From Providencia rettgeri (lineage in GTDB: Bacteria; Pseudomonadota; Gammaproteobacteria; Enterobacterales; Enterobacteriaceae), in NCBI RefSeq assembly GCF_001874625.1, contig NZ_CP017671.1, positions 1,302,001-1,366,000 on the forward strand: a stretch of 64,000 nt of DNA. Direction: 5' to 3'. The notes under the pieces were generated by a model. It was not told the origin of the DNA, did not search any database, and was given only the letters and a program-made list of their open reading frames with translations. Position numbers and translations under genes: made by a program. Shown piece after piece: positions 45,236 to 60,000 of the stretch. The number at the start of each line of letters is the position of its first letter. Within the stretch, counting starts at the first letter, position 1.

Positions 45236-45367
45236 GTAAATATCCTATTAATCAGTCATGGACGTTATCTTAAATAAGTGATTTGTTTAGCGCAATTTAT
45301 CATTATCTGAGAATACAGATTTTAGCTTTTTAGGGAATCGTAAAAACAAAAAAGGGGCCTAACGGAG

Positions 45368-45387
45368 TATATAGTGAATTTTGTGTA
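45368..45387. other. Candidate left attachment site of the island
   Basis: TATATAGTG (45368-45376) followed inward by AATTTTGTGTA (45377-45387). The right junction has TACACAAATT inside and TATATAGTG outside. Joining the ends gives a core flanked by inverted TACACAAATT/AATTTTGTGTA arms, as expected of a tyrosine-recombinase site. Confidence 0.5.
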
Positions 45388-45408
45388 CTTCTGTTGGTGA
45401 GTGAGTGA

Positions 45409-45445
45409 ATGCCCCATAAGCAAAGGCTTTTGGGGCATTTTTAGT
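45409..45445 (+). terminator. Terminator-like hairpin inside the left end
   Basis: ATGCCCCA (45409-45416) pairs with TGGGGCAT (45431-45438), with an inner AAGC/GCTT stem, then TTTT on the plus strand. It would stop transcription entering from the aarA side, not the minus-strand cassette transcripts, which meet no T run there. Confidence 0.6.
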
Positions 45446-45479
45446 TTTTACACGGTATGTAATTTGGTGTGTAAAAATA

Positions 45480-45523
45480 GGAGCACTTGCTCCAAGGGCT
45501 CTGCCCTCTCGCCGCAAGCGGCG
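45480..45523. repeat. Three tandem perfect mini-hairpins
   Basis: GGAGC-ACTT-GCTCC (45480-45493), AGGGC-TCT-GCCCT (45495-45507) and CGCCG-CAAG-CGGCG (45510-45523) follow each other within 44 bp. Each is a perfect 5-bp stem with a 3- or 4-nt loop. Just before lies TTTTTACAC (45445-45453) facing GTGTAAAAA (45469-45477). Role unknown; possibly a folded single-strand end of the island or integron. Confidence 0.7.
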
Positions 45524-45530
45524 ATTCACC

Positions 45531-45554
45531 CGAGGTATTTCACGACCAGCGATG
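45531..45554 (+). repeat. 24-bp direct repeat flanking the integron, left copy
   Basis: Identical to 52398-52421 except one base (C instead of G at the 11th position); it begins CGAGGTATTT and ends GACCAGCGATG. The two copies enclose the integron inside the island. Confidence 0.85.
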
Positions 45555-45707
45555 TGATCCAGTGAGAGCACAGATACAGATAACTTCCTCGGGGATGCTT
45601 AAAAGTGAGCAATGGTCGTACCACCATACTCATACTGTAGCTGGAGGATGCCATAATAAATTGGCCGCCCGTAGCTTTGGTCGCAAAGCGAACGTTCAGA
45701 TTTCGGA
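45555..45707. other. Non-coding tail of the integron
   Basis: About 150 bp between the last attC and the left 24-bp repeat. I see no gene, cassette or IS end in it. It may be a remnant of a lost cassette or of the original integron host. Confidence 0.4.
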
Positions 45708-45793
45708 ATAACGCTTAGGTAACCGGCGCCGGAGCGCCAGCGGAGGGAACCAAAAGCGGCACGCTTTTGGCGTCCGGTTGACCGCCTTGTTAC
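45708..45793 (-). other. attC of the GNAT cassette
   Basis: Imperfect inverted repeat running from ATAACGC to CGCCTTGTTA, with an internal CAAAAGC/GCTTTTG stem. It ends the last cassette of the array. Confidence 0.85.
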
Positions 45794-46254
45794 ATGGTGA
45801 TTCGATAGTATCCGCCATACTCTCCATCCTTAGAACCACTGTGCGTGGCCTGCCAACCCAATTTTTGGGCCACTCTCTTGCTGGCCACATTATCGTCCGC
45901 GATGAAGACCTGAACGGTATCGAGGTCGAACTCTGTGGATAGCCTTTCAACCGCCAACTCGCAAGCCTTGGCAGCTATCCCGTTTCCCCAAAACTCCGAC
46001 CTGATGAAATAGCCGAAGTCGAAAACGCCATCTATCTGCTTAATACCGCAGAACCCGATAAATTCATCTTTATCAGCCTCTGCAATAGCAAAGCGAGTTG
46101 GGTTAGTGAGAGCACTCTCGAACCAAGAATTCGCCTCATCTTCTGTCAGGGCGCGACCCGGCCCAAGAAATCGCATGACCTCAGGATCTCGAAGCATCGA
46201 CATAACAGCCGTCTTATCTTTCTGTTGAAGATCCCTCAGCTTCACTGGAATCAT
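45790..46254 (-). CDS. Cassette GNAT acetyltransferase (RimJ/RimL-like)
   Basis: 154 residues with FGYFIRSEFWGNGIAAKACELAVERL, where GNGIA is the acetyl-CoA loop, and DNVASKRVAQKLGW. It resembles RimJ/RimL-type N-acetyltransferases; the acceptor is unknown. It is not close to the aminoglycoside acetyltransferases I recall. Eighth and most distal cassette from the integrase. Confidence 0.8.
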   Translation of the reverse strand: MIPVKLRDLQQKDKTAVMSMLRDPEVMRFLGPGRALTEDEANSWFESALTNPTRFAIAEADKDEFIGFCGIKQIDGVFDFGYFIRSEFWGNGIAAKACELAVERLSTEFDLDTVQVFIADDNVASKRVAQKLGWQATHSGSKDGEYGGYYRITM

Positions 46255-46270
46255 AAGGCCGACCTCACCA

Positions 46271-46338
46271 TGTAACGCGAAGCTAAGCGGCGGCCCGTCA
46301 GGGACGTCCGGTGGACGGCCGTCAGGCCGGGAACGTAC
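46271..46338 (-). other. attC of the HIT-like cassette
   Basis: G+C-rich imperfect dyad of about 70 bp between the HIT-like stop and the GNAT start, with GACGGCC-type stems and a TAACGC end. Less canonical than the others. Confidence 0.6.
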
Positions 46339-46779
46339 TTAAGCGATTTGTTGTACGTTCCAAGACTCCCGCAGCTGGCCAATGACACCCGCGACCGTTT
46401 CAAACACCACCTCGTGAGAGCAACGGTAACGGTCCCTGGCCCAATCCAAAACAATAGGGCCTCGAATTTGTGACGCATGGTGGGGAAATGCCTCCAAGTA
46501 CTCTTCAGTAAGGGCGGCTCCCCTGGGAAAAATGTGAAAATGAAGTCGAGACTGCTCTTCCCCAAACTGAGCGCAGTAGATGCGCAAGGGATTCACTGCT
46601 TCCTTTACCAGCGAAGTGACATTGGCCAATAGAGGGCCAAGGCTCTCGACCGATTGCCTTGGTAGAGCATCTAGCGATTCGACTGAAGCCAACGGAGAGA
46701 CGATCAAATAGCCGGGCACAGCACAGGAATAGCAGTGCTCGACTAAAAAATCTTCTGATCGTCCAATCTCGAAGTTCAT
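46339..46779 (-). CDS. Cassette HIT-like domain protein
   Basis: 146 residues with the fold of the histidine-triad nucleotide hydrolases: AVPGYLIVSPLASVESLDAL and the motif SRLHFHIFPRG near residues 96-106. The usual HxHxH triad reads HFHIF, so the third histidine is phenylalanine; catalysis may be altered. Substrate unknown. Seventh cassette. Confidence 0.75.
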   Translation of the reverse strand: MNFEIGRSEDFLVEHCYSCAVPGYLIVSPLASVESLDALPRQSVESLGPLLANVTSLVKEAVNPLRIYCAQFGEEQSRLHFHIFPRGAALTEEYLEAFPHHASQIRGPIVLDWARDRYRCSHEVVFETVAGVIGQLRESWNVQQIA

Positions 46780-46792
46780 CAGTACCTACTCG

Positions 46793-46876
46793 TACAACGC
46801 TTGCAGCATGCGCGCCTGCGGAATGGAGCCAAAGGCGCAATGTAGTAGGCGTCGCCGTGCCTGCATTGGTTAAAAC
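46793..46876 (-). other. attC of the secreted-protein cassette
   Basis: About 84 bp from CAACGC to TTGGTTA. It shares the internal pattern GCATGCGCG...GGAATGGAG...GCAATGTAGTAG with the next two attC sites. Confidence 0.8.
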
Positions 46877-46882
46877 CTACCA

Positions 46883-47389
46883 TCAGGAACCTCCGGGGTT
46901 AGCCAGCCGCACCGCAACGTTGCTGTGTTGCGATCCAGTTTCATTCTCATGCTGTGAGCCGAAAAGATTGACCCACTGCCCCTGAACCAACACCAACTCC
47001 CCGTTGCCAACACTGCTCCCATTGCTCCCATTGCTCCCATTGCTTGTAGTGTAATTGCCAGCATAGTTGAACTGGAATTGGCCGGACGAGCCCATGATTG
47101 GCTTGAGTTCATAACCTATGGACAACTCACTGGAAGAGGCAAAGCCTTTATCCTTGCTCGATACGCTAACCCTTAAAAGTCTCGATTCTTCCAGAAAGCT
47201 TGGCAATAAATCAGAGGGTAAGCTATCCGATTGTGTAGCCTGACACTCACAATACCGAACCTCCAACACCAGCGTTTTATTGGCGAGATAGTCTTCAGGA
47301 GCCGAGTTGTCGGCAAGAGCAATGCTAGGAATCAAGGATAGAAAGAGCAGATTAACCCGCAGAGTAATTTGTGTTGCGATCCGTTGCAT
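46883..47389 (-). CDS. Cassette secreted protein with Asn-Gly-Ser repeats
   Basis: 168 residues. The N-terminus (LRVNLLFLSLIPSIALADNS) is a signal peptide, probably cut after ALA. The mature part has RYCECQA near the start and a low-complexity NGSNGSNGSS stretch encoded by a 9-bp tandem repeat at about 47014-47044. No family recognised. Sixth cassette. Probably periplasmic. Confidence 0.65.
   Translation of the reverse strand: MQRIATQITLRVNLLFLSLIPSIALADNSAPEDYLANKTLVLEVRYCECQATQSDSLPSDLLPSFLEESRLLRVSVSSKDKGFASSSELSIGYELKPIMGSSGQFQFNYAGNYTTSNGSNGSNGSSVGNGELVLVQGQWVNLFGSQHENETGSQHSNVAVRLANPGGS
47014..47044. repeat. 9-bp tandem repeat in the secreted-protein gene
   Basis: The unit TGCTCCCAT occurs three times in a row, with a partial fourth copy. 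On the minus strand it encodes repeated Asn-Gly-Ser, so slippage would change length in steps of three residues without frameshift. Confidence 0.85.
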
Positions 47390-47408
47390 GTGACCTCCTG
47401 TATTTACG

Positions 47409-47493
47409 TTTTAACGCCAGCCAGCATGCGCGGCTACGGAATGAAGGCGAAGCCGCAATGTAGTAGACGTCGCCGTGACTGGCCTTGTTATGC
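47409..47493 (-). other. attC of the 110-residue-protein cassette
   Basis: About 84 bp, TTAACGCCAGCC to GGCCTTGTTA. Apart from the first base, one mismatch separates it from the attC at 47851-47936. Confidence 0.85.
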
Positions 47494-47495
47494 AT

Positions 47496-47828
47496 TTACC
47501 ATTGGACCAAAACGTCTTGAACTTTCAGTGTCTCCGAGTCGAATCCAATCGCCCAAAACACTTTGATATCACTTTTGCTGTACTTCGCCTTCCACAACGT
47601 CAACTTGGACTCATTTCTCGGTAGGCAATCTATAGACTCGATGCTTTCCAACGCACCCATTTCGTTCTCTATATCCCGACACATATCCAGATACATGTCT
47701 TCAGTGATCTTCCCATCGTCATTCGGGTCCTTAGGCAGCGCCGACATTTCTTGGAGTTCCCGATAGCTCCTTCCGTCATGTAGCTTGATTAGTCGCTCAG
47801 CCAGTTCAGTTTCTCGGTCAGTGATCAC
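47496..47828 (-). CDS. Cassette hypothetical protein, 110 residues
   Basis: I start at GTG 47828, preceded by an excellent AGGAGG (plus-strand CCTCCT 47838-47843) just inside the cassette boundary; a longer frame to 47867 would run into the neighbouring attC. The product is acidic and soluble (ITDRETELAERLIKLHDGRS, ending VQDVLVQW), without recognised domain. Fifth cassette. Confidence 0.65.
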   Translation of the reverse strand: MITDRETELAERLIKLHDGRSYRELQEMSALPKDPNDDGKITEDMYLDMCRDIENEMGALESIESIDCLPRNESKLTLWKAKYSKSDIKVFWAIGFDSETLKVQDVLVQW

Positions 47829-47850
47829 GTAACTTGTCCTCCTTGATTGC

Positions 47851-47936
47851 ATAACGCCAGCCAGCATGCGCGGCTACGGAATGGAGGCGAAGCCGCAATG
47901 TAGTAGACGTCGCCGTGACTGGCCTTGTTAAAACCT
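47851..47936 (-). other. attC of the DnaJ-zinc-finger cassette
   Basis: ATAACGCCAGCC to GGCCTTGTTA, with inner CGGCT/AGCCG stem; almost identical to the attC at 47409-47493. Confidence 0.85.
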
Positions 47937-47942
47937 CTTGGG

Positions 47943-48344
47943 TCACTTGGAATAATGCCCCTCTACTGTAATTTGTACCGGAGTGCAGCCAACACGTCCG
48001 GCACCATGGCAGCCATAGCAAGTTTCCCTTTCCCCAGTTTTCGGGTTGTCGTAATACCCGACACCGGCGCATACCTCGCAAGGGCAGCCATTTGCTGAGA
48101 GCTTTTTATACTTAAGCCATGTTTGCTCAAGCAATGTGCTTGGTTCTGCCTTTCCCGTAACCACATCCAACAAATGTTGGTGCTCGATATTGATGGGATT
48201 GAGAACACCTTGCTCTAAAGCCCTAATCCAACACCCATTCAGCTCCAGCTCCATATTTTCCTGATGGCTAAATTGTCGCTCGAGCCATGCGGGTAACAGA
48301 AAATCCATCTCTCGATATTTTTTATGTTGTTGTTCATCGTTCAT
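47943..48344 (-). CDS. Cassette protein with DnaJ-type zinc-finger repeats
   Basis: 133 residues. The C-terminal part has CEVCAGVGYYD and CYGCHGAGRVGC, two CxxCxGxG-like repeats as in the DnaJ cysteine-rich domain, but there is no J domain. It probably binds zinc and perhaps a protein client. Fourth cassette. Confidence 0.7.
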   Translation of the reverse strand: MNDEQQHKKYREMDFLLPAWLERQFSHQENMELELNGCWIRALEQGVLNPINIEHQHLLDVVTGKAEPSTLLEQTWLKYKKLSANGCPCEVCAGVGYYDNPKTGERETCYGCHGAGRVGCTPVQITVEGHYSK

Positions 48345-48365
48345 GGTATCACCAGGGCATACCCC

Positions 48366-48444
48366 GTTTTAACGCCTGGGCTCAGCGGCCGATTTGGAGG
48401 CGCACCGCGCCGGAAAACCGGTCCGCTGGAGCCCCTGGTTATAC
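48366..48444 (-). other. attC of the DinB cassette
   Basis: TTTTAACGCCTGGGCTC to GAGCCCCTGGTTATAC: complementary ends with a G+C-rich centre (CGCACCGCGCCGG). Confidence 0.85.
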
Positions 48445-48981
48445 ATTGTTCTGACTCGGGATCAGTGCTAGCAAATCCGTTACCCCAACGTCTTCGCCAG
48501 ATTGCGAAAGTAGCGTAGTTACCTGCCCCCGATGATGAGTTTGATGATTGAAGAAATGATAGATCAAGGAGGAAAATCGTTTGGTGGCGGGCACACCCTT
48601 GGTATTCTGATAGCTGAGAATAAAATCTAAATCACTATCAGTGAGCCCTGAAATCCATTTGATGATTTTCTCATCTAGCCACTTTCGGTGGCTATACAAC
48701 TCATCAAGATCTTCGAAAATTATTTGGTTGAGGTTTTTGGGAGCCGCTAGCTCAGTGATTTCACGTAGTGGTTCAGCGCTTGCTGGTTGTGCAGCAAACC
48801 TCTTTAGCCAAATCGTATCCCCAACAACGATATGGTTTAGCGTACCCAATATTGACCCGAAGAAGGCTCTTCGATCTTCTAAAAGAGCCGATTTGCTCAG
48901 GTTGCCTGCGGCGCCATATACCCTCTCATTCATCCACCGGTTGTATTCGGCCATCAGCTCAAAATGTTGTTTCAGGCTCAT
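48439..48981 (-). CDS. Cassette DinB-family protein
   Basis: 180 residues, a four-helix bundle of the DinB/YfiT type: LKQHFELMAEYNRWMNERVY at the start, LNHIVVGDTIWLKRF with the first metal histidine, and YHFFNHQTHHRGQVTTLL with the HxxxH pair. Relatives include metal-dependent thiol transferases and detoxification enzymes. Substrate unknown. Third cassette. Confidence 0.82.
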   Translation of the reverse strand: MSLKQHFELMAEYNRWMNERVYGAAGNLSKSALLEDRRAFFGSILGTLNHIVVGDTIWLKRFAAQPASAEPLREITELAAPKNLNQIIFEDLDELYSHRKWLDEKIIKWISGLTDSDLDFILSYQNTKGVPATKRFSSLIYHFFNHQTHHRGQVTTLLSQSGEDVGVTDLLALIPSQNNV

Positions 48982-49002
48982 CTGACTGAGGTCCTTCTAC
49001 TG

Positions 49003-49088
49003 TATAACGCCTCACATCACCGGGAGCGAAAAGCAAAGCGAGGGACGAGCGGTACTTTTTGCTCTCCGAGTGCATGTGATTGTTATGT
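49003..49088 (-). other. attC of the ereA cassette
   Basis: TATAACGCCTCACATCAC at one end and GTGATTGTTATG at the other, with a GGGAGCGAAAAGCA/TGCTCTCC inner stem. Confidence 0.85.
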
Positions 49089-49105
49089 AGTCCAATTTCC
49101 GATGC

Positions 49106-50329
49106 CTATAATTTCACTAATTTATCTTGGTTGGCGCTAGGAACGCAGAATATAGCGTCAAAGGCATCACTCACATTCGTCTCAACAGATGAGCTCTGCG
49201 ATCTAACTCGGCTAGCGCCTTTAACGTCGTCCGACAATATTAAACATGAGCCCGCCACACCCCTAGCACTCATAATATGCTGTTCCACACTGTCTCTTTG
49301 GATTTTATCAGCGTCTGTGGGCTCCACCGAAAAGCCTAACGGACTGTCAGGCGAAGGAAACTGCATCTCCGGCACAGTACCCCCTAGATGCGTTGCTCCA
49401 ATGGCACGGTAATCTTTCCTCCGATACGCAAGTTGCTGGCCCATAGGAACAGCCGTAAGTTCTCCAGAAAAGGAAACTGAAGTCTTCTGGATATGGTTGT
49501 TATGCGCAAGTAGAAGTATCTTCAAATTTGGATCTGCGTGAAGAAATCTCTCAACAGTGGTAGCTGTGAACATCTCACGAACGGAAGTGTCACCATCGAG
49601 TGAAGTGCCATCAAAGAGCATCTTCATGGTGCGCAATGTTTCGAGCGTATGTTCAATCGAACAGACACACTCCGACGCCCTTTGAAACAGCTCCTTTCCA
49701 CCTCGCTGGACTAGAATTGGTTCCAATCCAGACAACCGCAACTTTAACCGACTAATCCGGGAGAAGGCTTGATCCTGTTTAGCGGTACCCAGTTCACCCC
49801 ATTGCGCGGATGAAATCACGGGGGAATCGCCACATATGGATTCCAAAGACTGGATTAACGCATCGACGTCCGGCTTCAAAATGGGATCCAGTAAATCAAT
49901 AGCCGCGGACAATCTCTGTAAGTCGTCAAGTGGGTTCAGCGTATTGGGCAAATCAACGCCAACCACCATAATGCTTTTTCCAGTCTCTAAAAGATAAGAT
50001 TTGAGCCAAGTCAGCACCGACCCATACAGAGCGAAGGTCAATGGGTTCGTGATTTCCTCTAGCTTATCCGTGCTCGCTGAAGATTTGAGCCATTCGGAGA
50101 TCCGGTTACCCTGAACCGCCCCGCACTCCAGCCCAATTGCATTAAACTCGTGCATCTCTACAAAGTATCGGATGAAACTGGCTCTGGCCAAGGAAAACTC
50201 AGAAACAAAGTGAGCCCCTTCGCCAATCCCTATCACTCTGGCATATTTCGCCATCGAAGATAGATCTTCAAGCTCACTGAAATCTACATTACAAGGCTGT
50301 AAGAGCGTTCTGATTGTTCTGTACGTCAT
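49106..50329 (-). CDS. ereA: Erythromycin esterase EreA
   Basis: Hydrolyses the lactone ring of 14-membered macrolides. The 407-residue sequence matches EreA as I recall it; RVIGIGEGAHFVSEF includes the catalytic histidine region near residue 46, and LLLAHNNHIQK is the second conserved block. It is a known integron cassette. Second cassette, behind dfrA. Enterobacteria are intrinsically little susceptible to macrolides, so its benefit may have been in another host. Confidence 0.93.
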   Translation of the reverse strand: MTYRTIRTLLQPCNVDFSELEDLSSMAKYARVIGIGEGAHFVSEFSLARASFIRYFVEMHEFNAIGLECGAVQGNRISEWLKSSASTDKLEEITNPLTFALYGSVLTWLKSYLLETGKSIMVVGVDLPNTLNPLDDLQRLSAAIDLLDPILKPDVDALIQSLESICGDSPVISSAQWGELGTAKQDQAFSRISRLKLRLSGLEPILVQRGGKELFQRASECVCSIEHTLETLRTMKMLFDGTSLDGDTSVREMFTATTVERFLHADPNLKILLLAHNNHIQKTSVSFSGELTAVPMGQQLAYRRKDYRAIGATHLGGTVPEMQFPSPDSPLGFSVEPTDADKIQRDSVEQHIMSARGVAGSCLILSDDVKGASRVRSQSSSVETNVSDAFDAIFCVPSANQDKLVKL

Positions 50330-50390
50330 ATGTTCAACTCAATATCTTCATTATGATGGATCTGCTGTATCTAGTTCCTAGGTCAGGATA

Positions 50391-50514
50391 CATAACGCCC
50401 TGTTAAGGTGTGAGCAACGCAATACCGAAGCCTCCACACACCACCTTAATCACTTAAATCAACGCATAGTGAAAATGCCACGCGTTGCGAATCACTCTTG
50501 AACAGTTTGTTAGC
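50391..50514 (-). other. attC of the dfrA cassette (Vibrio-type repeat)
   Basis: About 124 bp, longer than the others. It contains CAACGCGTGGCATTTTCAC, the core I recall from the 123-126-bp VCR repeats of the Vibrio cholerae superintegron, with TAACA and GGGCGTTATG at its ends. Points to a Vibrio source for this cassette. Confidence 0.85.
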
Positions 50515-50983
50515 CCTTTGTCCAAATTTGGTACGTGTAATCAATATTTGAACTGAAACTTTGCTCAAATGTTTGCTTGAAACTCTGTGGAACTGAAGGG
50601 AAAAACACGTCGCCAGAGATGTGCTTATGAATCACTGAAAGATGGATAACATCTGCTTGTTCGATTAATGCTTTGTAAATTTCACCACCACCAGAAACAA
50701 AGACATGTGTTGTCGTGTTGTCTAAGTAAGCTAATGCCGATTCAACGCTTGTGAAATAAACAACATCAGGATCATTCGAGGCCATTTCAGTACGAGTAAC
50801 CACAGCATATTTCCTATTCGGAAGTTTACCCATTGAGTCGAAAGTTTTACGACCGACTAAAAGCCAATGATTGTAAGTCATAGCTTTGAACAGGAGCTGC
50901 TCACCATATACATGCCAAGGTATATCCAATCCAGAGCCAATTACTCCATTCTCGGAAACAGCTGCCATAATGGATATTTTCAT
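50510..50983 (-). CDS. dfrA: Trimethoprim-resistant dihydrofolate reductase
   Basis: 157-residue DfrA of the dfrA1-like integron group, reducing dihydrofolate in spite of trimethoprim. [44 protein letters not shown] and [18 protein letters not shown] are the expected blocks. It looks nearest to the dfrA6/dfrA31 branch as I remember it; the allele number needs a database. First cassette, with a strong GGAGG ribosome site right after the recombination point, so best expressed. Confidence 0.93.
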
Positions 50984-50996
50984 TTTTCCTCCTGAG

Positions 50997-51060
50997 GGCT
51001 AACAGCTTATTAGTTTGCTTTCTTATTAAACCGCAACACCATCACCCAGTCCAATACTGC
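50997..51060 (-). other. attI site and junction with the dfrA cassette
   Basis: On the minus strand the junction reads GTTAGCCC just before the dfrA ribosome site, the G/TTRRRY-type crossover. The integrase-proximal side up to about 51060 is where attI must lie; its exact extent is not known for this integrase type. Confidence 0.7.
51025..51054 (-). promoter_or_regulatory. Candidate cassette promoter (Pc)
   Basis: On the minus strand TTGGAC (51054-51049) and TTTAAT (51030-51025), 18 bp apart, point into the cassettes. Both boxes are imperfect matches to consensus. Placement is right; activity is inferred. Confidence 0.35.
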
Positions 51061-51143
51061 TTCACAACCTGAATAACCTCGATTTTTCAGATCATTACCC
51101 CTCCATCTCAGGGGGCTTTTGAGCTTTTGGTTCTGTGAAAAGT

Positions 51144-51180
51144 GTGCACGCGGGATATTTATGCACGTTTTTGCACGTTA
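51144..51180 (+). repeat. Three TGCACG repeats between attI and the integrase gene
   Basis: TGCACG occurs at about 51145, 51162 and 51172, the last two extended to TGCACGTT. Direct repeats near attI are used by IntI1 as accessory binding sites; a similar role is possible though the spacing from the crossover is larger. Confidence 0.5.
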
Positions 51181-51306
51181 AATCCAGTGGGTCGAATTTT
51201 TCCCATGCTGAAACAGATACCTACAGAGATGCATTGTGAAAAGTGAGCAGGGCCGTGCAAATTAAGCCGCAAGAATTTTGGTGTTTTTGGGTGTTTTTTA
51301 TTATAA

Positions 51307-51322
51307 CTGTACGTACATACAG
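51307..51322 (+). promoter_or_regulatory. Perfect LexA box before the integrase gene
   Basis: CTGTACGTACATACAG is a perfect CTGT-N8-ACAG operator, 22 bp before the integrase start codon. LexA control of integron integrases, linking cassette shuffling to the SOS response, is established for class 1 and Vibrio integrons. Confidence 0.92.
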
Positions 51323-51344
51323 CATTCAGCCACGGAGGGCGAGC

Positions 51345-52313: not shown

Positions 52314-52492
52314 TGGGGCGTTGCTTACCCGTTTAAGGGGCGTAAAGCCTGGAATTGGGAGTGCGGCGAATGTCCGCTTTTGTTTATGAGCTGATTTCGA
52401 GGTATTTGACGACCAGCGATGATCGTTTAAGATGAAGTTGCGGTACAGGGAGAGGTCCCGATGGCCGCGACCGGCGATGAGGGGGCGTGCCA
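52314..52492. other. Gap between intI and the helicase gene, with the right 24-bp repeat
   Basis: The two genes converge here. The gap holds the right copy of the 24-bp repeat; I see no terminator or gene in the remainder. Confidence 0.5.
52398..52421 (+). repeat. 24-bp direct repeat flanking the integron, right copy
   Basis: Starts CGAGGTATTT and ends GACCAGCGATG; one mismatch from 45531-45554, same orientation, about 6.9 kb apart. It marks the likely border between integron and mobile-trio backbone. Confidence 0.85.
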
Positions 52493-54667
52493 TTAATGGC
52501 TTACCCCCGAATCCCTCTCTTGCAGCAGCTCCCTCAAGAAACTCGCCCGCCTGGTGGCATTGCTTACCGATTTTACGATGGACGCAAAATCACTAGCCTG
52601 CCCGACAATATGTATCTCTGCCTCGGCACGGGTAATCGCCGTGTAAAGCCACGCACGGTCTGAGATACGCCCCGTCTGGACTGCCACGATGATTCTCGGG
52701 AACTGGCTCCCTTGAGCCTTGTGGAGCGTGATTCCGTAGCCAAGCTCCATGCAATCGAAGACTTCATCCGTAATTGAAATGGCTTCGCCGGTATCCAGCG
52801 TCACGACACCAAATGTTTCCTGGCCGTCCTTGGTGTCGCGCTCTGTTGAGGATAATACGCCAAGAGACCCATTCTGAATGCCGATGTTGTACTTGTTCCT
52901 GGTGAAGAGGATCGGGTCGCCCACTCTGATATCGAGGAAGAATTCATCGCCATGCAGTCTAAACTGCAAGCACTCCCCATCGGGATTGATCAGCTTTTGG
53001 CACTCACGGTTCACCTCGCCAACTAGAGCCTTGGTGGCTCCGATGATCTGAGTGTTATAGGGTGACTCCGCATACAAGGATTTGCACTTATCGACCATCT
53101 TCTGCGGAGGCGTCTCGTGGAACGTGATTGCGCCAACCGATAACGCAGGAGGCACCTCACCCCGATTGATGGTGGCCGAGTATTCCGGGATGCCCGTTGA
53201 GTCTTCCTGGCGTTTGACGATGTTCAACTCAACCGTAGCGATTGCACCGGACTCAACGATGTCTGAGAGGACTTTGCCGCAGCCGATGGCTGGTAGCTGG
53301 TTCGGATCGCCGGTCAGGATGATGCGTACCGAAGGATCGAGGTGCGTAACAATCCGATACATGGTCGGCAGGTCGGTCATACTGGCTTCGTCGATGACCA
53401 GGAGATGCTGCGCCTGATCCAGTGACGGCGAGATCGGCTCTTCCCGCAACAGGCGAGCAATTGTCATGGTGAAGAATCCGATGCTCTCGTGCAGTCGCAT
53501 AGCAGCTCGCCCCGACAGAGCGACGGCATGAACCTGATAGCCTAGTGCGGCATAGGCTTTGAGCACGGCACGAAGGACCGTGGTTTTACCCGTACCGGCA
53601 CCACCCGTAATGCAGGACACCGCATTGGTAAGGCTCAACTCGACCGCTTGGACCTGCTGCTCGGTCAGGTCGTAGGGCAACTCCTGAACGGCCTCGGTGA
53701 GCGCCTTGAAGACGGATTCATCTTCATTCTTGATGGCGGCCAGGGCCTTGAGCCGCTTCGCAACGACCGACTCCATCATGATTTGGGCGGTAGGGTGGTA
53801 GGTGCCGGTCTCTGGCCTGAGAATGAACTGGCCGTTGCGATAACCGCTGGCGAACGCCTCTGCGACCAGAGCTTTATCGCCCAGAAGCTTGGTCACCTCG
53901 GGCCTGAGCGCCGGATGGGAGGCGTAGGTGTGCCCCTTTTCTACCTCTTTTCGTATCGCGCTTTCTAACGCAGCTGCGAGCCGCACCGGTGCCGATTTAT
54001 CCATGCCCATTTTTTCAGCAATCGCATCGATATCGGGAAAAGGCATTCCGAATCCGAGCAATGCGTAGGGATTGGTCTTGAGTACCTCAACGGTTCGATT
54101 ATCGTGGTACTTTAGAATGCGTTGCTGGATGCTCAGCGGCACTCCCAGAGAAGCCAGCCAATTCGCATGCGCAAGGTTTTTGTACTTGGCGTAGCCGTTG
54201 TATAGCGCGGTTACTGAAACCTCGCTAAGAACCTCCCTGAGACGGCCTCTGTGCTCGGAGGTATTGGATTGGAGCATGGGGTGCAGGTCACTGCCAAAAA
54301 CGTTCCAGAGGGCGCGTGCTTTGGCCTCACCGATACCGGTGAACTCCTTTTCATTGGCAATGAAACGGATCAGCGCCTCGCCCGTTTCCGGCAGCGTGCA
54401 CTCCATCTCAGCTGGGGCGTCATACAAATGTTGCTGAAGCTTATAATCGCCTGCCTGAACGGTCTCCAGCGTCCTTACGCCACGCACTCGCCATTGCTGA
54501 CCAACGGACGGCTTGATAGGCAGGGACTGGTTTTCGCATCGGATGCTGACGATGTATTTGCCCGAGTTGATCTTGTAACTGTCAGTCTTGAGGGGAACGC
54601 CCGTGAAGATCGTGTATTTATAGCCGTTATGCTGGCAGCTGGTGACACGGAAATACTCTTCATGCAT
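52493..54667 (-). CDS. RecD2-like superfamily 1B DNA helicase
   Basis: 724 residues. An N-terminal OB-like region and helix-hairpin-helix segments (FTGIGEAKARALW, residues 109-121) precede the helicase core: Walker A CITGGAGTGKTT (352-363), Walker B HLLVIDEASM (421-430), motif III LTGDPNQLPAIG (451-462) and the C-terminal UvrD-type YGITLHKAQGSQF. This is the layout of RecD2/TraA-like 5'-3' helicases. Its start overlaps the preceding gene by 8 bp, so it is the fifth gene of the recombinase operon and may help excision, integration or replication of the island. Confidence 0.88.
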   Translation of the reverse strand: MHEEYFRVTSCQHNGYKYTIFTGVPLKTDSYKINSGKYIVSIRCENQSLPIKPSVGQQWRVRGVRTLETVQAGDYKLQQHLYDAPAEMECTLPETGEALIRFIANEKEFTGIGEAKARALWNVFGSDLHPMLQSNTSEHRGRLREVLSEVSVTALYNGYAKYKNLAHANWLASLGVPLSIQQRILKYHDNRTVEVLKTNPYALLGFGMPFPDIDAIAEKMGMDKSAPVRLAAALESAIRKEVEKGHTYASHPALRPEVTKLLGDKALVAEAFASGYRNGQFILRPETGTYHPTAQIMMESVVAKRLKALAAIKNEDESVFKALTEAVQELPYDLTEQQVQAVELSLTNAVSCITGGAGTGKTTVLRAVLKAYAALGYQVHAVALSGRAAMRLHESIGFFTMTIARLLREEPISPSLDQAQHLLVIDEASMTDLPTMYRIVTHLDPSVRIILTGDPNQLPAIGCGKVLSDIVESGAIATVELNIVKRQEDSTGIPEYSATINRGEVPPALSVGAITFHETPPQKMVDKCKSLYAESPYNTQIIGATKALVGEVNRECQKLINPDGECLQFRLHGDEFFLDIRVGDPILFTRNKYNIGIQNGSLGVLSSTERDTKDGQETFGVVTLDTGEAISITDEVFDCMELGYGITLHKAQGSQFPRIIVAVQTGRISDRAWLYTAITRAEAEIHIVGQASDFASIVKSVSNATRRASFLRELLQERDSGVSH

Positions 54668-55103
54668 CGGGCGCTACTCCGAACTCTGTGAGGACTTCGG
54701 ACAGTTCACCGTAACGTTTTAGCTTGGCTTCGAGGGTTGCCACCCGGGCCTTTAGTTCAATGTTTTCCTGCTCCAGCACTGAGAGCCTTCTCGATTCCAT
54801 GGCTCTTTTGTTAACGCTGGGATCATAGCGTTTGGGTTCTGATCGCTGGGCCTTGGCGGTTTCGGTCAGTTCTGGCAGAACACCCCGATAACGCAGGTTC
54901 TGCTCCAGATTCTCCAATGCCGTTTTGATGGCCGGATTCTGGCGCAACGCGCTCTTTCCGATGCCTATGGCTTTGGCCACTTCGCCACGGTTTAACTGGC
55001 CCCGATGGAGGATCTGCTTAAAATCGTCATCCGTTTGGGTGGCCACCCAGCTCTGGAAGGCACTCAGGTTCTGACGTGCTCTTTCCTGACCATTACTCAT
55101 CAA
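54660..55103 (-). CDS. VPA1267-family-like coiled-coil protein of the mobile trio operon
   Basis: 147 residues. An N-terminal region with GQLNRGEVAKAIGIGKSALRQNPAIKTALENLE resembles a helix-turn-helix, and residues about 110-135 (LEQENIELKARVATLEAKLKRY) form a coiled coil. The plan recalls TnpC of Tn554. I match it to the protein encoded beside the GMT genes in Vibrio parahaemolyticus (VPA1267); that is from memory. It overlaps both neighbours. Confidence 0.7.
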   Translation of the reverse strand: MMSNGQERARQNLSAFQSWVATQTDDDFKQILHRGQLNRGEVAKAIGIGKSALRQNPAIKTALENLEQNLRYRGVLPELTETAKAQRSEPKRYDPSVNKRAMESRRLSVLEQENIELKARVATLEAKLKRYGELSEVLTEFGVAPDA

Positions 55104-55761
55104 TTTCCCCCAGGATCTTCTTGAGCCCGGTCAGGAAGCCACGAGGCAGGATTTCCACACCATACTCATCCTTCACCTGACCCAATTCGTTCGCCTGGAA
55201 CCCGAGCTTTTCGAGCCACTCATCGGTGCAGACGGTTTGCAGGGCTTTAATCTCGTTGTCAGAGCAGACTCCCTTCAATGAGGGCAGCAGCTCCACACTG
55301 GCGTCTGACTGGGGTTCACTGTAAACCGTAGGGCGCTTGTCGATGACGATCTGGGTTTGGTTCTTGAGCATGTTGGCTTCGCTCCTGTAGCGATCCCGCT
55401 CACGGATGATTTGCCCAAAAAGGGCTCGCACAGCTGTATCATCAATCCGCTCAAGCAACTGATGGTCCTGAGTTGGTCTCTTGGCAGGCCCTACCGGTGG
55501 CTTCTTGGTGGTGGTCTTCGCCTTAGCGGCCCACGCTTCAATCAGGTCCCGGTAATGCTTGTTCGCGGTGGCACGAATCGACTGATAGCCAACGCCGTCA
55601 TTTTCCTCTGAGACACGCCCTATGGTGGTAATGGAGAAGTCCCGGGCACCGGATTCGTAGTAGTCCTTCAGGGTCTGGTTGAGCGTATCCAGGGACGACT
55701 GTGTTTTAGCGGTTTTACCGTCCTTGAGGGACTCCAGAACCGCATTGGTATCGATGTTCAT
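55093..55761 (-). CDS. gmtX: Gamma-mobile-trio protein GmtX
   Basis: 222 residues, no catalytic motif seen. Mostly helical: an N-terminal DNA-binding-like segment (FSITTIGRVSEENDGVGYQSIRATANKHYRDLIEAWA, about residues 42-78), a basic linker and a conserved-looking C-terminus (RGFLTGLKKILGEI). Identification rests on its place directly after the two recombinases and its size. The start overlaps the gmtZ stop by 4 bp. Confidence 0.75.
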   Translation of the reverse strand: MNIDTNAVLESLKDGKTAKTQSSLDTLNQTLKDYYESGARDFSITTIGRVSEENDGVGYQSIRATANKHYRDLIEAWAAKAKTTTKKPPVGPAKRPTQDHQLLERIDDTAVRALFGQIIRERDRYRSEANMLKNQTQIVIDKRPTVYSEPQSDASVELLPSLKGVCSDNEIKALQTVCTDEWLEKLGFQANELGQVKDEYGVEILPRGFLTGLKKILGEIDE

Positions 55762-58379
55762 TCTTCCACCTCCAGGGCGGGAATCCGCGCCACGGATTCA
55801 GTAGGCAAGGTGATTGGGGCTATCTTCTTCACGGCGTCAAACCCGGATTTCAGCAGCCGATCGTCTTTCAGGAATTCCTGCGCCTCAATGTAATTGGACG
55901 CGATCCGGTAGCCCTCAAGCCGATCTTCGGGGGCGGCGATTTTGGCCATCTTGCGCATGAGCGCGTTACCCGCAATCAACTGGGTTTGTTCGTCCATTTC
56001 AAGGAAAACGGGCTTGTACCCGGAACGGGCCATCATGCGGCTCAAGGCGTTGGTACGCTTGGCTATCGCGGGCGTCTTGCGCAGATCATCATGCAGATCG
56101 GGGTGGAACTCAGCGTCCTCGCACAGCAGTGCCAGGTGCAGTAACTCCGAGTCAGTTTCGACGAACTTCATACTATATTTGAGGTCTTCATCAGAGCCGA
56201 CCGCGATCAGCTTTTGCCCGTCGTCGTCCTCTTCACGCCCATTCTCGATCTGGATCACCCGATTGATCAGGTTGAAAATTGCGATGCAATCCTTGGCGTA
56301 CTCATCCGCCTCCACCCTCTGCTTCTCGTAGCGCCGTTCTATCGCCTGAAGTTCGTTGTGCTTGAGAAACACTGCACCGGTTTCCTCAGCGATGAACAGC
56401 TCATCCTTTAGTGCTTCTAGCTGACCCTCTAGGTGAACAGACAGCTCGGCCGCCTGGTGCGCCTTGTAGCTCACCTGGTTGAACGCAGAATTGAGAGCCG
56501 GAAGATAGGTGGCATCGGTAATGTGCCAGCGACAGCGGGGACAGTTTTCCGGCCCGAGGGGGACCGGGCCATAAACTCTTGAATGTGCGCTTTCTGAACC
56601 CCTAACTATCGGGCCACCGTTCCAGCACCCGCCTACGGTGGACAGCTCATCTGAGCGCACGGTGTTGCCCCCAACCAGGCACAAGCCCGTGGCTCGTTCC
56701 TCCCAGCCGATGGGATTCCGGTTGGCAAGCACGCTCTCGACGGAATTGTGCTGGTCGTTGTGAAAGGCAGCCCGGAGCGGGATCTGTCTCATTTCCGCGT
56801 CCACCAGGAAGTTTCGGAGCGAGCCTTCACCTCGTTCGGACAGAACTGCGTGTGCCTCCTTCATTTTGTCGGCCATCACGGAGGGCGTGATCTTGTTGTA
56901 ATAGATCGTCATCAGAAGCCGTGTGTGGCCGGCCAGAAGCTTCGCGATCACCGGCAAGGGGAGGTCGGTGTCCATGGTGTAGCAGGTGATCAAGGAGACC
57001 CGAAGGCTGTGAAGCGGGTAGTCCGTTGCCACCTTAGCGGCTTCCGTACCTTCAAAGTCCTCGCCGTAGTCTTTCACAAACCGAAGGCGATCCCCGTTGG
57101 CCATCGTTTGGCCCGACTGGAAGACATCCTCTTCCAGTTTGGACAACAGGCGATACCACGAACTAGCCAATGAGGTGTAGGTAATTGGAAAAGCAGAATT
57201 ACGCTCCCTGAATAAAAAGGCAAACTCGCCCATTTGTTTCAATTGTTGCTTGGATTTAGCGACGCCAATATGGCTACGCTTAAGCTCTGTGCCACTGACC
57301 AGTCGGTTAATCGGGTTGTATTTTTCCTGCCAACTGCGGAGCTTTTCCAGCCAATACAGCAGCTCTTCGTGCTGCCAAGGGATGGTGTATCCCCGCTGAA
57401 GTTCATCCTTGTTTTGATCGGCGGTTTTGTTGGTGGACACGTAGAGGCCGGTCGAGTACCCCTCGGTCATGGAGTCATATATGCGGCGGAAGACGCCTTT
57501 CTCATAAGGTCGCTTGGGCGTTCCATACTTGAAGGGGTGCTTGGTGTTTTCCACCCATTGCCCACCTTCATAGCGCCAGGTATCGGCTTCGCCGGAGTCC
57601 AGAAACCTCACCTGAAAAGAGCGCAGGGGTAGGTGCAGCTTGGTAAACAGGAACATCGCCATGACCGGCGACCAGATTTCGTGGACCTCAACTCTTTCTC
57701 CCTTCCTGGGCACAATCCGAGTCCGGAAAACGCAATCCGGATCATCAGGGTCGATGACCTCGGGCGGCACTTCCACCCATGCCCCATTGCCAGACTGAAG
57801 GTGATCGATGGCCCATTGCCAGTCCCGGAAATGGTGGCCTACCCACGGCGTTTTATTGCCGGGGTCGTCGGTTGGATAGGGGCAGAGGATGTGCCTCAGT
57901 TGCTGGATGTAGCGATAGGGCAAGGGGCTGTGGACGGTTTCGGTGTTTGATGTGTTATTCGTGATTTTCTCGAACGGATTCGGGAATAGGGGCCGCCCAA
58001 CGCCGTTATCGTCCTCGGCGCTCAAATGGTGCTTGAGGATGTAATTGCATAAATCGACCGTGGACGAAATGTGTTTAGAGTTTTTAGTAATCGATCCACT
58101 GCTAACCAGAAAGGCCTCAAACTCTTCCGTGGACACCTTGTGACCACCCGGATGGCCCTTGAACATCGTGGCCACGTCAACGGCGTACGGGGCTTTAGCG
58201 TTCAGATAGTTAAAGAAGTGTCTTAAGCATTTTAATCGCAGATCAATGCCTACGTTTTGCTCCGCAAGCCATTCGGCGGCGTACTGCTGCCATTGCAGCC
58301 AGTTGTGCCCCAGTTCCTTAGTCACCCACCCCAGCGTCAGATCCGTGGTGTAGCCTTTACTCGTCCTTCTTTTTGTCAT
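55758..58379 (-). CDS. gmtZ: Gamma-mobile-trio integrase GmtZ
   Basis: 873-residue large tyrosine recombinase. Catalytic residues appear as Arg253 (LPLRSFQV), His457-Arg460 (LHSLRVSLIT), His485 (LAGHTR) and Tyr494 (TIYYNK). Behind the catalytic part are four cysteines, C567, C585 and CPRC at 613-616, a likely zinc site, then a long helical region. A partner recombinase of this size beside a 490-residue one is characteristic of GMT elements. It overlaps gmtY by 4 bp. Confidence 0.85.
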   Translation of the reverse strand: MTKRRTSKGYTTDLTLGWVTKELGHNWLQWQQYAAEWLAEQNVGIDLRLKCLRHFFNYLNAKAPYAVDVATMFKGHPGGHKVSTEEFEAFLVSSGSITKNSKHISSTVDLCNYILKHHLSAEDDNGVGRPLFPNPFEKITNNTSNTETVHSPLPYRYIQQLRHILCPYPTDDPGNKTPWVGHHFRDWQWAIDHLQSGNGAWVEVPPEVIDPDDPDCVFRTRIVPRKGERVEVHEIWSPVMAMFLFTKLHLPLRSFQVRFLDSGEADTWRYEGGQWVENTKHPFKYGTPKRPYEKGVFRRIYDSMTEGYSTGLYVSTNKTADQNKDELQRGYTIPWQHEELLYWLEKLRSWQEKYNPINRLVSGTELKRSHIGVAKSKQQLKQMGEFAFLFRERNSAFPITYTSLASSWYRLLSKLEEDVFQSGQTMANGDRLRFVKDYGEDFEGTEAAKVATDYPLHSLRVSLITCYTMDTDLPLPVIAKLLAGHTRLLMTIYYNKITPSVMADKMKEAHAVLSERGEGSLRNFLVDAEMRQIPLRAAFHNDQHNSVESVLANRNPIGWEERATGLCLVGGNTVRSDELSTVGGCWNGGPIVRGSESAHSRVYGPVPLGPENCPRCRWHITDATYLPALNSAFNQVSYKAHQAAELSVHLEGQLEALKDELFIAEETGAVFLKHNELQAIERRYEKQRVEADEYAKDCIAIFNLINRVIQIENGREEDDDGQKLIAVGSDEDLKYSMKFVETDSELLHLALLCEDAEFHPDLHDDLRKTPAIAKRTNALSRMMARSGYKPVFLEMDEQTQLIAGNALMRKMAKIAAPEDRLEGYRIASNYIEAQEFLKDDRLLKSGFDAVKKIAPITLPTESVARIPALEVEE

Positions 58380-59848
58380 GATTTACCTTTGCCCAATCGT
58401 GGATTCTTGCCCGTAAAGTGGCCGTTTGGATCAATGTCTTCAAAACCGTGTTCTGCAAGCGTCTTCCAATCGAAAGATGCGGGGGGCTTTTCCTTATCCG
58501 ATCCCAACTGAAGTTGTTGTGTTGCCTGGGACAGCGCTTCCGAGACTTTCGCGCTGGAGGGCATGGTGTAAGGAACCTGAGACTCCAGGCTTGCGTGATG
58601 CAGGCACTTTTTGCGAATAAGCGGATCGACTCCGGCATCCGTCAATCGACGGCCATAGTTGTGGCGATGGCCGTGTGGATCTAACCCTACGGTCTTGTCG
58701 GGTTCGAGACCAATTCGTCTTAACCCAGCCGCATAATTTTGGTTGAAGGAATTGTAGGTATAGGGATTGCCCAGATAGCGAGAGTCGAAGCTAACAAACG
58801 CATAGGGATGATGGCACTCCACCGATGCACGGAAAACCAAATACTGTCGCCACAGCGACATGAATACTTGGGCAAACTCTTGCGGGAAGAAATGCGCCTC
58901 CAGGTAGCCATCCTTGTCATCTAGGGTTTTGGATTTCCAGCCGAGATGTGGGGTTTTTTGCATCTCCTGGCGCGGGATGCGTGCGTATTTTTCTTGAAGG
59001 TACGCCTTGCGGGTTTTTATCCCTTTTCGGGACTTCCAGCCTTCAGGTGCCTTACCTTCTATCTCGTTGTAGATCCTCACGATTGCCCGATCTGGATCGG
59101 AGGGGTCTTCAAAGACATCGGTGACCCAGAGTAACAGTGCTTCGCTCACCCTCAATCCGGTCGCGTGCATCAGGAGCACGATAAGCTTGTCCCGCAGCGC
59201 AACTCGCGGGTCTTTGGCTCCTCCCAGGCCCTTCATATAGAAGTCTTCAAACTTTCCCGTAGGGAAGGCGATGGCATCGTCATTGGTTTTTGCCAGAGGT
59301 GTTCTGCCCTTGATGCTGCGGGCTCTTTTTACCGTGGTACTAACCGAGGTGTCTTTAATGTGCCCGAGGAAATCATTCTGGTTACGCCTAAACCAAGCGG
59401 CGTACTGAATGCGTTCCTCATGTCGAGTGGCTGTGCGCAAGGTATTGAGAGGCTTGCCCAGACCTTTGTCCGAGAGCCAATTGGTGAAATTCGTCAGATT
59501 GCTGATGTGTCGATGTATCGTGCCATTACTGGCCGGTATCCAATACAGGCCAGAGGGGTCCAATCCATCTTCACCGATGGTCCCGCTGTAGAGCCGTCGG
59601 ACGAAGCCCGCGAACAACGCTTCGGGTTCATCGAACATGCCTTCGTTGGCATCCATGAACTCGATGAGGAGTCTAATCGACTGAATATGGTTGGTGATTG
59701 TTGAAAATGAGATGCCATTTAGGTGAAGGCTAAGCACATAATCTGTGACCGACCCCAAAACCCCTTGGTCGGTCAGAATGACCGGGATCTCTGTGGTTAC
59801 TCCACTGTTATCCTGAACTACCTTGGCTGTAACCTTCGTTGCAAACAT
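58376..59848 (-). CDS. gmtY: Gamma-mobile-trio recombinase GmtY
   Basis: 490-residue tyrosine recombinase, first gene of the island operon. N-terminal SAM-like domain (residues about 30-130), then the catalytic domain with Arg233 (HATGLRVSEALLL), His392-Arg395 (PHGHRHNYGRRL), His418 (CLHHAS) and Tyr427 (VPYTMP). Its start is only about 40 bp from the candidate right attachment site, so the promoter lies at the element's edge and might change activity in the circular form. Confidence 0.88.
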   Translation of the reverse strand: MFATKVTAKVVQDNSGVTTEIPVILTDQGVLGSVTDYVLSLHLNGISFSTITNHIQSIRLLIEFMDANEGMFDEPEALFAGFVRRLYSGTIGEDGLDPSGLYWIPASNGTIHRHISNLTNFTNWLSDKGLGKPLNTLRTATRHEERIQYAAWFRRNQNDFLGHIKDTSVSTTVKRARSIKGRTPLAKTNDDAIAFPTGKFEDFYMKGLGGAKDPRVALRDKLIVLLMHATGLRVSEALLLWVTDVFEDPSDPDRAIVRIYNEIEGKAPEGWKSRKGIKTRKAYLQEKYARIPRQEMQKTPHLGWKSKTLDDKDGYLEAHFFPQEFAQVFMSLWRQYLVFRASVECHHPYAFVSFDSRYLGNPYTYNSFNQNYAAGLRRIGLEPDKTVGLDPHGHRHNYGRRLTDAGVDPLIRKKCLHHASLESQVPYTMPSSAKVSEALSQATQQLQLGSDKEKPPASFDWKTLAEHGFEDIDPNGHFTGKNPRLGKGKS

Positions 59849-59858
59849 CCTTGAATCC

Positions 59859-59894
59859 TACACAAATTACACATTATTTACTATATATATAGTG
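59859..59894. other. Candidate right attachment site of the island
   Basis: TACACAAATTACACATTATT lies inside, then ACTATATATATAGT (59880-59893, a perfect palindrome) with TATATAGTG at 59886-59894. TACACA occurs at 59859, 59868 and, beyond the edge, 59944. Compare with the left site at 45368-45387. Confidence 0.5.
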
Positions 59895-59911
59895 CAGTCT
59901 TCAGGAAAAAG

Positions 59912-59935
59912 AAACCCCCAATTAAGGGGGTTTTT
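59912..59935. terminator. Terminator after maeA
   Basis: AACCCCC and GGGGGTTTTT around a short AATTAA loop give a bidirectional intrinsic terminator. It is probably the native maeA terminator, just outside the island. Confidence 0.88.
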
Positions 59936-60000
59936 ATCAAATTTACACAGTTCTATGTACTATAGAGAACTAAGAGCCCCTTTCATACGCTTATTACGAA

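Follow-up and report, generated by a model that had tools for sequence, protein, structure and literature searches.

The stretch of Providencia rettgeri DNA analysed here (64,000 nucleotides, positions 1,302,001 to 1,366,000 of contig NZ_CP017671.1 in assembly GCF_001874625.1; hereafter the window) carries a genomic island that belongs to the Gamma-Mobile-Trio (GMT) elements and holds an integron with eight gene cassettes beside its recombinase operon. It is probable, in our judgement, that this island is a complete and recently active GMT transposable element with a mobile integron in its cargo slot, moving by the cycle proposed below. The features that carry this view are exact ends, empty sites, a spacer from the target side, palindromic targets, a covarying terminator within the element, several copies including some with hybrid flanks, and differing cassette arrays.

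The island is a GMT element, as homologues of GmtY, GmtZ and GmtX are encoded in one operon and all lie above the curated cut-offs of their hidden Markov models (HMMs), which rules out that the label reflects mere resemblance. A preliminary description of this DNA had matched the trio to GMT by order and size, and had named an overlapping operon of proteins of 490, 873, 222 and 147 residues and a helicase; all were found, head to tail on the minus strand, with overlaps between neighbours of 4, 4, 11 and 8 bp, and the VPA1267-family protein passes its cut-off as well. Its span for the island, 45368-59894, was close to the ends that comparison of copies gives, and its RecD2-like helicase is indeed a relative of RecD2 that scores below the cut-off for RecD2 itself, and is RecD2-like only.

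45365..59969: whole GMT element, GAGTATATAG...CTATAGAGAA, 14,605 bp; ends from three chromosomal copies and five plasmid records compared with empty sites
58376..59848, minus strand: gmtY, tyrosine recombinase of 490 residues (NF040693, 529.3 bits, cut-off 340)
55758..58379, minus strand: gmtZ, large integrase of 873 residues (NF047926, 989.4 bits, cut-off 600; PF13009)
55093..55761, minus strand: gmtX, 222 residues (NF040692, 228.4 bits, cut-off 40)
54660..55103, minus strand: VPA1267-family protein, 147 residues (NF040697, 193.9 bits, cut-off 90)
52493..54667, minus strand: RecD2-like SF1 helicase, 724 residues (TIGR01448, 366.1 bits, below the cut-off of 500)

All five core frames are open in the window copy. 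The residues R233, H392, R395, H417/418 and Y427 of GmtY are invariant among 10 aligned rows, as are H457, R460, H485 and Y493/494 of GmtZ among 9, with the HxxR, histidine and tyrosine positions kept; these are presumably the catalytic set of tyrosine recombinases. The fifth core gene is a RecD-like helicase in the GMT element of pKAZ2 as well.

The 4.78-Mb contig holds three copies of the element, two of them identical and one with a 1-base difference that lies in the interval before the integrase gene, outside genes. The element is also present in five Providencia plasmid records, three of which (L002, L003 and L004) are identical to copy 1, that of the window, while L001 differs from it by one base and L005 by three; pPROV170-1 and pPROV161-1 have two copies each. 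Among 24 genomes of the genus, GmtY exceeded its cut-off in one, the P. rettgeri genome itself, and the copy-1 site joined without the island gave an almost full-length match in 4 of the 23 others (G005, G006, G008 and G012), so that the same 14.5 kb is not a fixture of every Providencia genome, the circumstance that the preliminary description had named as fatal to its proposal. The remaining genus genomes matched the joined site only in part. In one of them (G011, contig C1, 3215492-3215596) the matched halves lie about 105 bp apart, and the part of this interval that was read (L081) contains no GMT end. In wider samples GmtY was above the cut-off in 3 of 369 genomes of the class, the present one among them, in 2 of 398 from one order and in 1 of 2 from another, and so small a number of elements does not allow the statistics given below to be extended. 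GMT cores were also seen in draft genomes of Camelimonas and Neopusillimonas (L058, L062), where contamination is possible; these genera being alpha- and betaproteobacteria, the range of the trio may perhaps reach beyond the Gammaproteobacteria.

The ends of the element are flanked on each side by a 6-bp spacer and, beyond it, by one half of a host transcription terminator.

45348..45358: left half of the split host terminator, AAAAAAGGGGC; the joined site folds as a terminator, and a terminator-like hairpin with another loop occurs here in G005 and G006
45359..45364: distal 6-bp spacer CTAACG, read as donor-derived; CTAAGA or CTTTCG takes its place in other copies
59970..59975: gmtY-side 6-bp spacer CTAAGA, target-derived; four other insertions have this hexamer as their distal spacer
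59976..59983: right half of the split host terminator, GCCCCTTT, from the fold of the joined site

Two of the plasmid targets were found whole. For the empty traG site, at least 80% of the query was covered by a single stretch in 989 of 998 matching records, and the five matches listed are 100% identical; for the empty traN site the corresponding records number 760 of 777, and the five listed are 99.8% identical. Insertion thus adds 14,605 bp and 6 bp, with no duplication of the target. The spacers of six distinct insertions, distal and gmtY-side in that order, are as follows; the set omits L004 and L005, which have traN/traG hybrid flanks, as well as the second copy in each of pPROV170-1 and pPROV161-1.

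Beside the malic enzyme gene (window copy): CTAACG and CTAAGA
Peptide-transporter/glpX-like site (gene names by eye): CTAAGA and CGAAAG
traN of the strain's own plasmid: CTAAGA and CGAAAG
traN of pPROV170: CTAAGA and CTTTCG
traG of pPROV161: CTAAGA and CAGCAG
traN of p16Pre36: CTTTCG and CGAAAG

Wherever the empty site is known, the gmtY-side spacer equals the target's own 6 bp. In five of the six, the distal spacer is a hexamer that another insertion has on its gmtY side (CTAAGA four times, CTTTCG once), and from these recurring hexamers the distal 6 bp apparently come from the donor. By the same token four insertions likely descend from the window copy, or from one that shares its spacer but was not seen. 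(An earlier placement of the spacers one base inward, as TAACGG and TAAGAG, was dropped for the symmetric CTAACG and CTAAGA after more junctions had been compared.) The arrangement extends to a divergent relative: the GMT element of pKAZ2, with 59.5% identity in GmtY, interrupts the traG terminator at the very same base but faces the other way, and has the target's CAGCAG at its gmtY end and a foreign CTTTCG at the other. It might be supposed that the element spread only by homologous recombination and plasmid transfer, its recombinases being inactive relics and its insertions old, and some structures do need homologous recombination, such as the hybrid flanks of pPROV224-1 described below, while some plasmid copies have broken core frames. 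This we regard as highly improbable, since homologous recombination is unable to make precise insertions at unrelated sites, whereas the malic enzyme, peptide-transporter/glpX-like, traN and traG targets share exact ends, traN was hit in both orientations, and the five core frames of the window copy are open.

The second regularity concerns the place of insertion. Each of the four joined sites can be folded into a terminator-like hairpin whose loop is small, and the chromosomal site joined from copies 2 and 3 folds likewise, with differing loops, in the five relatives examined. A palindrome around the 6-nt spacer, with at least 8 of 10 arm bases complementary, was present at 10 of 13 two-sided sites compared with 145 of 168,281 control positions; as traN is counted three times, this amounts to 11 distinct targets, 8 of which pass (L167/L050 was left out, its distal end not having been found). 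By eye the three that fail are palindromes too, but with their boundaries shifted. From these data the targeting of terminators is strong among close relatives and partial in more distant ones. It could be argued that the element does not recognize terminators at all, and that other insertions were lost by selection, terminators being safe intergenic places; some GMT relatives do lie outside recognizable terminators. Safe-site selection, however, predicts intergenic positions and not the apical 6 nt of a hairpin, and neither the two divergent elements at one base of traG nor the arms symmetric about the spacer at 10 of 13 sites would follow from it, so that we think it unlikely.

If insertion splits a terminator, the loss might be made good from within, as each end of the element carries a hairpin that faces inwards.

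59912..59933, minus strand: inward-facing terminator at the gmtY end, top row of the terminator scan, with covariation
45408..45440, plus strand: inward-facing terminator-like hairpin at the distal end; folds in the 8 distal ends examined, unlisted by the rules of the terminator scan

The hairpin at the gmtY end lies about 36-57 bp inside the end and has a T-rich tail. In 19 aligned elements 93.4% of cells pair and both partners vary in 6 of 8 pairs; the covariation score of 0.450 compares with a shuffle mean of 0.164 (reached by 0 of 500) and with 0.083-0.167 for slid structures, although the rows are related, which inflates such scores. One of the eight folded distal ends, that of Pseudomonas mendocina, comes from a near-identical element. 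The inward terminators probably restore the termination lost by splitting the host terminator and shield the element. A parallel is offered by SE-6283, which inserts into bcp and carries a bcp homologue (PMC9345347).

Taken together, these observations suggest the following cycle. GmtY and GmtZ, aided by GmtX, the VPA1267-family protein and perhaps the helicase, would bring the two ends together in a circle, where the 6 bp that had flanked the gmtY end would lie between them. The circle would then insert into the apex of the hairpin of a host intrinsic terminator, the target's 6 apical bp staying at the gmtY end and the circle's 6 bp going to the distal end, and by this polarity of the spacer each copy would record its parent site. 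The donor copy would be kept or restored. The split terminator would be replaced by the inward terminators of the element, and identical copies on plasmid and chromosome could recombine, fusing or deleting DNA, while the integron inside, if its integrase is active, would gain and shuffle cassettes separately.

Several points weigh against this account. The circle, the transposition and the excision of cassettes are proposed from sequence comparison, and the source of the window copy's distal spacer CTAACG was not found. In several draft genomes, where the two ends of a site fall on separate contigs, their pairing is inferred. Core frames are damaged in some plasmid copies: in L001 one base is deleted and gmtY is not annotated, L005 has a shorter gmtZ with its three differences, and the traG copy of pPROV170-1 has a gmtX annotated in two pieces. 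Under a strict one-sided terminator test, 10 of 18 loci passed compared with 2,621 of 178,240 control positions (the 18 come from 21 loci, with L048 and L053, where the end of the element is the end of the contig, and L065, whose contig starts inside gmtY, omitted), and in a further set of plasmids 1 of 10 loci passed (two of them without an anchor) compared with 299 of 18,600. L069 lies, by eye, outside any terminator. The one-sided test misses 3 of the 6 Providencia junctions that do sit in terminators, and is therefore insensitive; by eye, L181, L182 and the pKAZ2 copy of the further set resemble terminator halves and the others do not clearly do so. Terminator targeting as a universal property of GMT elements is unsupported in view of L069 and of the two one-sided results. 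As to the damaged frames, the single-base differences that break or shorten gmtY, gmtZ or gmtX in L001, L005 and L171 may be either sequencing errors or decay.

The remaining chromosomal copies bear on how such elements rearrange genomes. Copy 2 is flanked on the left by the chromosome and on the right by plasmid traN DNA, whereas the two kinds of flank change places in copy 3; about 196 kb lies between these two direct copies. This segment was viewed at its two ends and in one 20-kb sample, which matches, among others, pPm60 (MG516911) and the Providencia hybrid NZ_OL908906; pPm60 is a pPrY2001-like plasmid (PMC6737455), and the traN flank is shared with records typed IncC. Provided that the assembly is correct, a plasmid of about 196 kb would be fused to the chromosome between copies 2 and 3. 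The assembly has to pass through repeats of 14.6 kb, a further count against the fusion, and such repeats are prone to misjoins; the two direct copies also bracket the segment as they would in a cointegrate. That the segment entered by direct GMT-made cointegration, or is an artefact of assembly, is for these reasons a possibility of some substance, if a doubtful one. Against it, the four junctions reassemble into two sites with complete spacer pairs (CTAAGA and CGAAAG), as for two insertions that later recombined, and a two-step fusion of plasmid and chromosome, by transposition and then recombination, was shown experimentally for SE-6945 (PMC9345347). Transposition followed by recombination between copies would thus have a natural case here, if the fused plasmid is real. 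The plasmid pPROV224-1 has one copy, with the traN-side flank on its left and the traG-side flank on its right, and falls short of pPROV170-1 by 70,762 bp, which fits recombination between two copies.

The cargo of the element consists of the integron, with its cassettes on the minus strand.

51345..52313, plus strand: integron integrase gene intI (TIGR02249, 402.2 bits, cut-off 265); WP_008169685 in the plasmid copies, start as annotated there
51003..51344: interval from the first cassette to intI, where attI and promoters are expected; begins at the GTTAGCC junction; 99.1-100% identical in L047, L064, L067 and L068
50397..51003, minus strand: cassette 1, dfrA46-like (NF000330, 289.3 bits, cut-off 250), attC from 50515
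49009..50396, minus strand: cassette 2, EreA-like esterase (580 bits, below the curated EreA cut-off of 750), attC from 49088
48374..49008, minus strand: cassette 3, DinB-family protein (family match), attC from 48444
47856..48373, minus strand: cassette 4, DUF413 protein (family match), attC from 47933
47416..47855, minus strand: cassette 5, 123 residues, no family match, attC from 47493
46799..47415, minus strand: cassette 6, 168 residues, no family match, attC from 46875
46277..46798, minus strand: cassette 7, 146 residues, no family match, HIT-like by eye only, attC from 46356
45713..46276, minus strand: cassette 8, GNAT acetyltransferase, attC from 45795

The full integron with dfrA and ereA of the preliminary description is borne out in its integrase gene, its cassettes and dfrA, the product of the ereA gene being only EreA-like. 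In all eight cassettes the inverse core of attC equals the start of its own cassette with 0 mismatches, a match that random 7-mers ending in AAC achieved in at most 1.7% of 300 trials per cassette, and the attC folds have z values of -2.0 to -5.7 relative to mononucleotide shuffles. The cassette boundaries were picked by hand after an automatic choice had proved partly wrong, and each attC was tested against the start of its own cassette; two attC finders that demand pairing with the core of the next cassette found no site in the array. The GTTAGCC junction lies about 340 bp before intI, which locates the candidate attI region to that interval only. Compared by NF011946 alone, presumably the class 1 (IntI1) model, the integrase scores 286 bits, below the cut-off of 435.

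The same integron recurs elsewhere. Of the 21 GmtY loci that come from named genomes, at least 3 have intI next to the GMT core, a lower bound as several loci end before the cargo region: Marinobacter persicus (IntI 100%, GmtZ 81% identical), Salinivibrio costicola (99.7% and 88%) and P. mendocina (100% and 99.9%). M. persicus has cassettes 5, 6 and 8 in common with the window array. The near-identical P. mendocina element carries dfrA46 (100%) as the last and not the first cassette, preceded by open reading frames (ORFs) of 180 and 231 residues, the latter sharing its first 25 residues with an ORF at QnrVC1 in L068. Eight plasmid records contain the window intI, five from Providencia and three (pVb1796, pVb1282-tet and that of Marinobacter SBY-1) beside other recombinase operons; the operon of pVb1796 has the look of intA-tfp-intB-srap, its small protein scoring 28.9 bits against a DUF6262 cut-off of 29. 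In Neopusillimonas the slot is filled by other genes, by eye for transporters and thiol-related proteins (the ORFs of L162 and L163 were described by eye). At the P. mendocina locus (L162, 3401-4968) transposase-like ORFs, so named by eye, split the interval before intI, with a 6-bp overlap between its pieces that resembles a target duplication.

The cargo is bounded by two sets of repeats.

45531..45554, plus strand: 24-bp direct repeat, distal copy
52398..52421, plus strand: 24-bp direct repeat, core-side copy, 96% identical
45679..45697, plus strand: distal cargo-boundary repeat, its inner 13 bp inverted, by eye, relative to the intI-side one
52368..52386, plus strand: intI-side cargo-boundary repeat, where homology to the integrons of pVb1796 and SBY-1 ends

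Imperfect inverted repeats (in the window, L163, L067 and L068), their inner 13 bp alike by eye, flank the integron in GMT and non-GMT contexts and flank the non-integron cargo of Neopusillimonas as well; the cargo between them is possibly a separate mobile unit. In M. persicus UTICA (L167, 15443-15466), which has no integron there, one fused 24-bp repeat joins core-side and tail sequence, as if cargo had been lost or gained between the 24-bp repeats. As the same integrase (99.7-100%) occurs both in further GMT backbones and next to unlike recombinase operons, the integron has the appearance of exchangeable cargo. Its constant position in the Providencia, P. mendocina, M. persicus and Salinivibrio elements might instead mark it as an old and fixed part of this GMT lineage, which we hold to be very unlikely, given an integrase that is 99.7-100% identical where GmtZ has fallen to 81% and 88%, a slot that other genes fill in Neopusillimonas, and the presence of the same integrase gene beside different operons in pVb1796, pVb1282-tet and the SBY-1 plasmid. 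The proposal that a GMT backbone moves a functional integron accordingly stands as regards movement, with near-identical copies (0-3 bases different) at different sites, while a functional state of the integron is suggested by a different array on a near-identical backbone. Outside the island, the sole Rfam match in the window above the gathering score is a Mo/W cofactor riboswitch (RF01055, 11230-11369, plus strand, 101.8 bits).

On a broader view, for which the balance of the evidence is slightly favourable, a large GMT branch would consist of terminator-seeking and terminator-restoring tyrosine-recombinase transposons, characterized by insertion at the apex of a hairpin, a 6-bp address of the parent, inward terminators, and a cargo slot into which the same integron, shared with different multi-recombinase elements, has been plugged repeatedly. 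Where a GMT carrier contains a cassette-collecting integron, movement and gene capture are coupled. The target rule, if true, would explain how islands enter chromosomes and conjugative plasmids without breaking genes, and the inherited spacer, if real, would make the parent site readable from sequence and the traffic from plasmid to chromosome traceable. The choice of hairpin loops by a tyrosine recombinase is a testable mechanistic question.

The founding description of GMT is reportedly that of Mahata et al. in Nat Microbiol in 2024. GMT islands carry defence and resistance genes; the pKAZ2 island (L184, 8144-14431) has genes annotated as RecN and an ATP-dependent helicase, possibly defence cargo. 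A literature search, beyond whose reach the founding paper lay, found no paper on GMT with an integron or on terminator targeting, and one on insertion into rho-independent terminators by tyrosine recombinases found nothing relevant. The combination, of which the preliminary description knew no earlier account, is to that extent new, although NCBI already labels gmtX, gmtY, VPA1269 (GmtZ), VPA1267 and the integron integrase in plasmid records. Known GMT islands (the work of Mahata et al. is cited in PMC12715929) share GmtY, GmtZ, GmtX, VPA1267 and cargo on the far side of the core; the window element appears to differ in its integron cargo, and the present analysis adds exact ends, spacer inheritance and a terminator target.

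A close parallel in mechanism is with the SEs (strand-biased circularizing elements), in which the target's 6 bp likewise lie at the intA end and the donor's at the other (PMC10214605), corresponding to the gmtY-proximal and distal ends here, and in which transposition and recombination fuse plasmid and chromosome (PMC9345347). The window-lineage element thus has a 6-bp spacer of fixed polarity, as SEs do. It differs in its targets, mostly terminator palindromes, inverted repeats being reportedly absent from the targets of SE-6945 and SE-6283 (PMC9345347). Comparison of profiles of the core proteins with the SE/GInt-like operon of pVb1796 and one SBY-1 protein gave no confident match, canonical SE proteins lying outside this comparison (E 0.13 and 0.2 with pVb1796 proteins; VPA1267 against a DUF6262-like protein, E 0.0082 at 4.9% probability); membership of SE or GInt is a possibility that the spacer rule fits and the proteins do not confirm. 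GInts are likewise multi-recombinase genomic islands, with four essential genes, and differ in core genes by name; the terms 'terminator', 'hairpin' and 'palindrom-' are absent from the text of PMC5385486.

Mobile integrons of classes 1-3 have, as here, an intI gene, attC cassettes with resistance genes and a mobile carrier; they may differ in the integrase, judging by its NF011946 score, and here the carrier is a tyrosine-recombinase element. Tn554, which has one preferred site and is not known to carry integron cargo, differs in both respects. Its two tyrosine recombinases with a small protein, 6-bp footprint and target specificity are similar (PMC10214605). Finally, an SE-like island of Pseudomonas aeruginosa with a nested TnAs3-related transposon likewise places resistance-bearing DNA in a multi-recombinase island, the difference being that it nests a transposon, whereas here the integron itself fills the cargo slot (PMC11064530).

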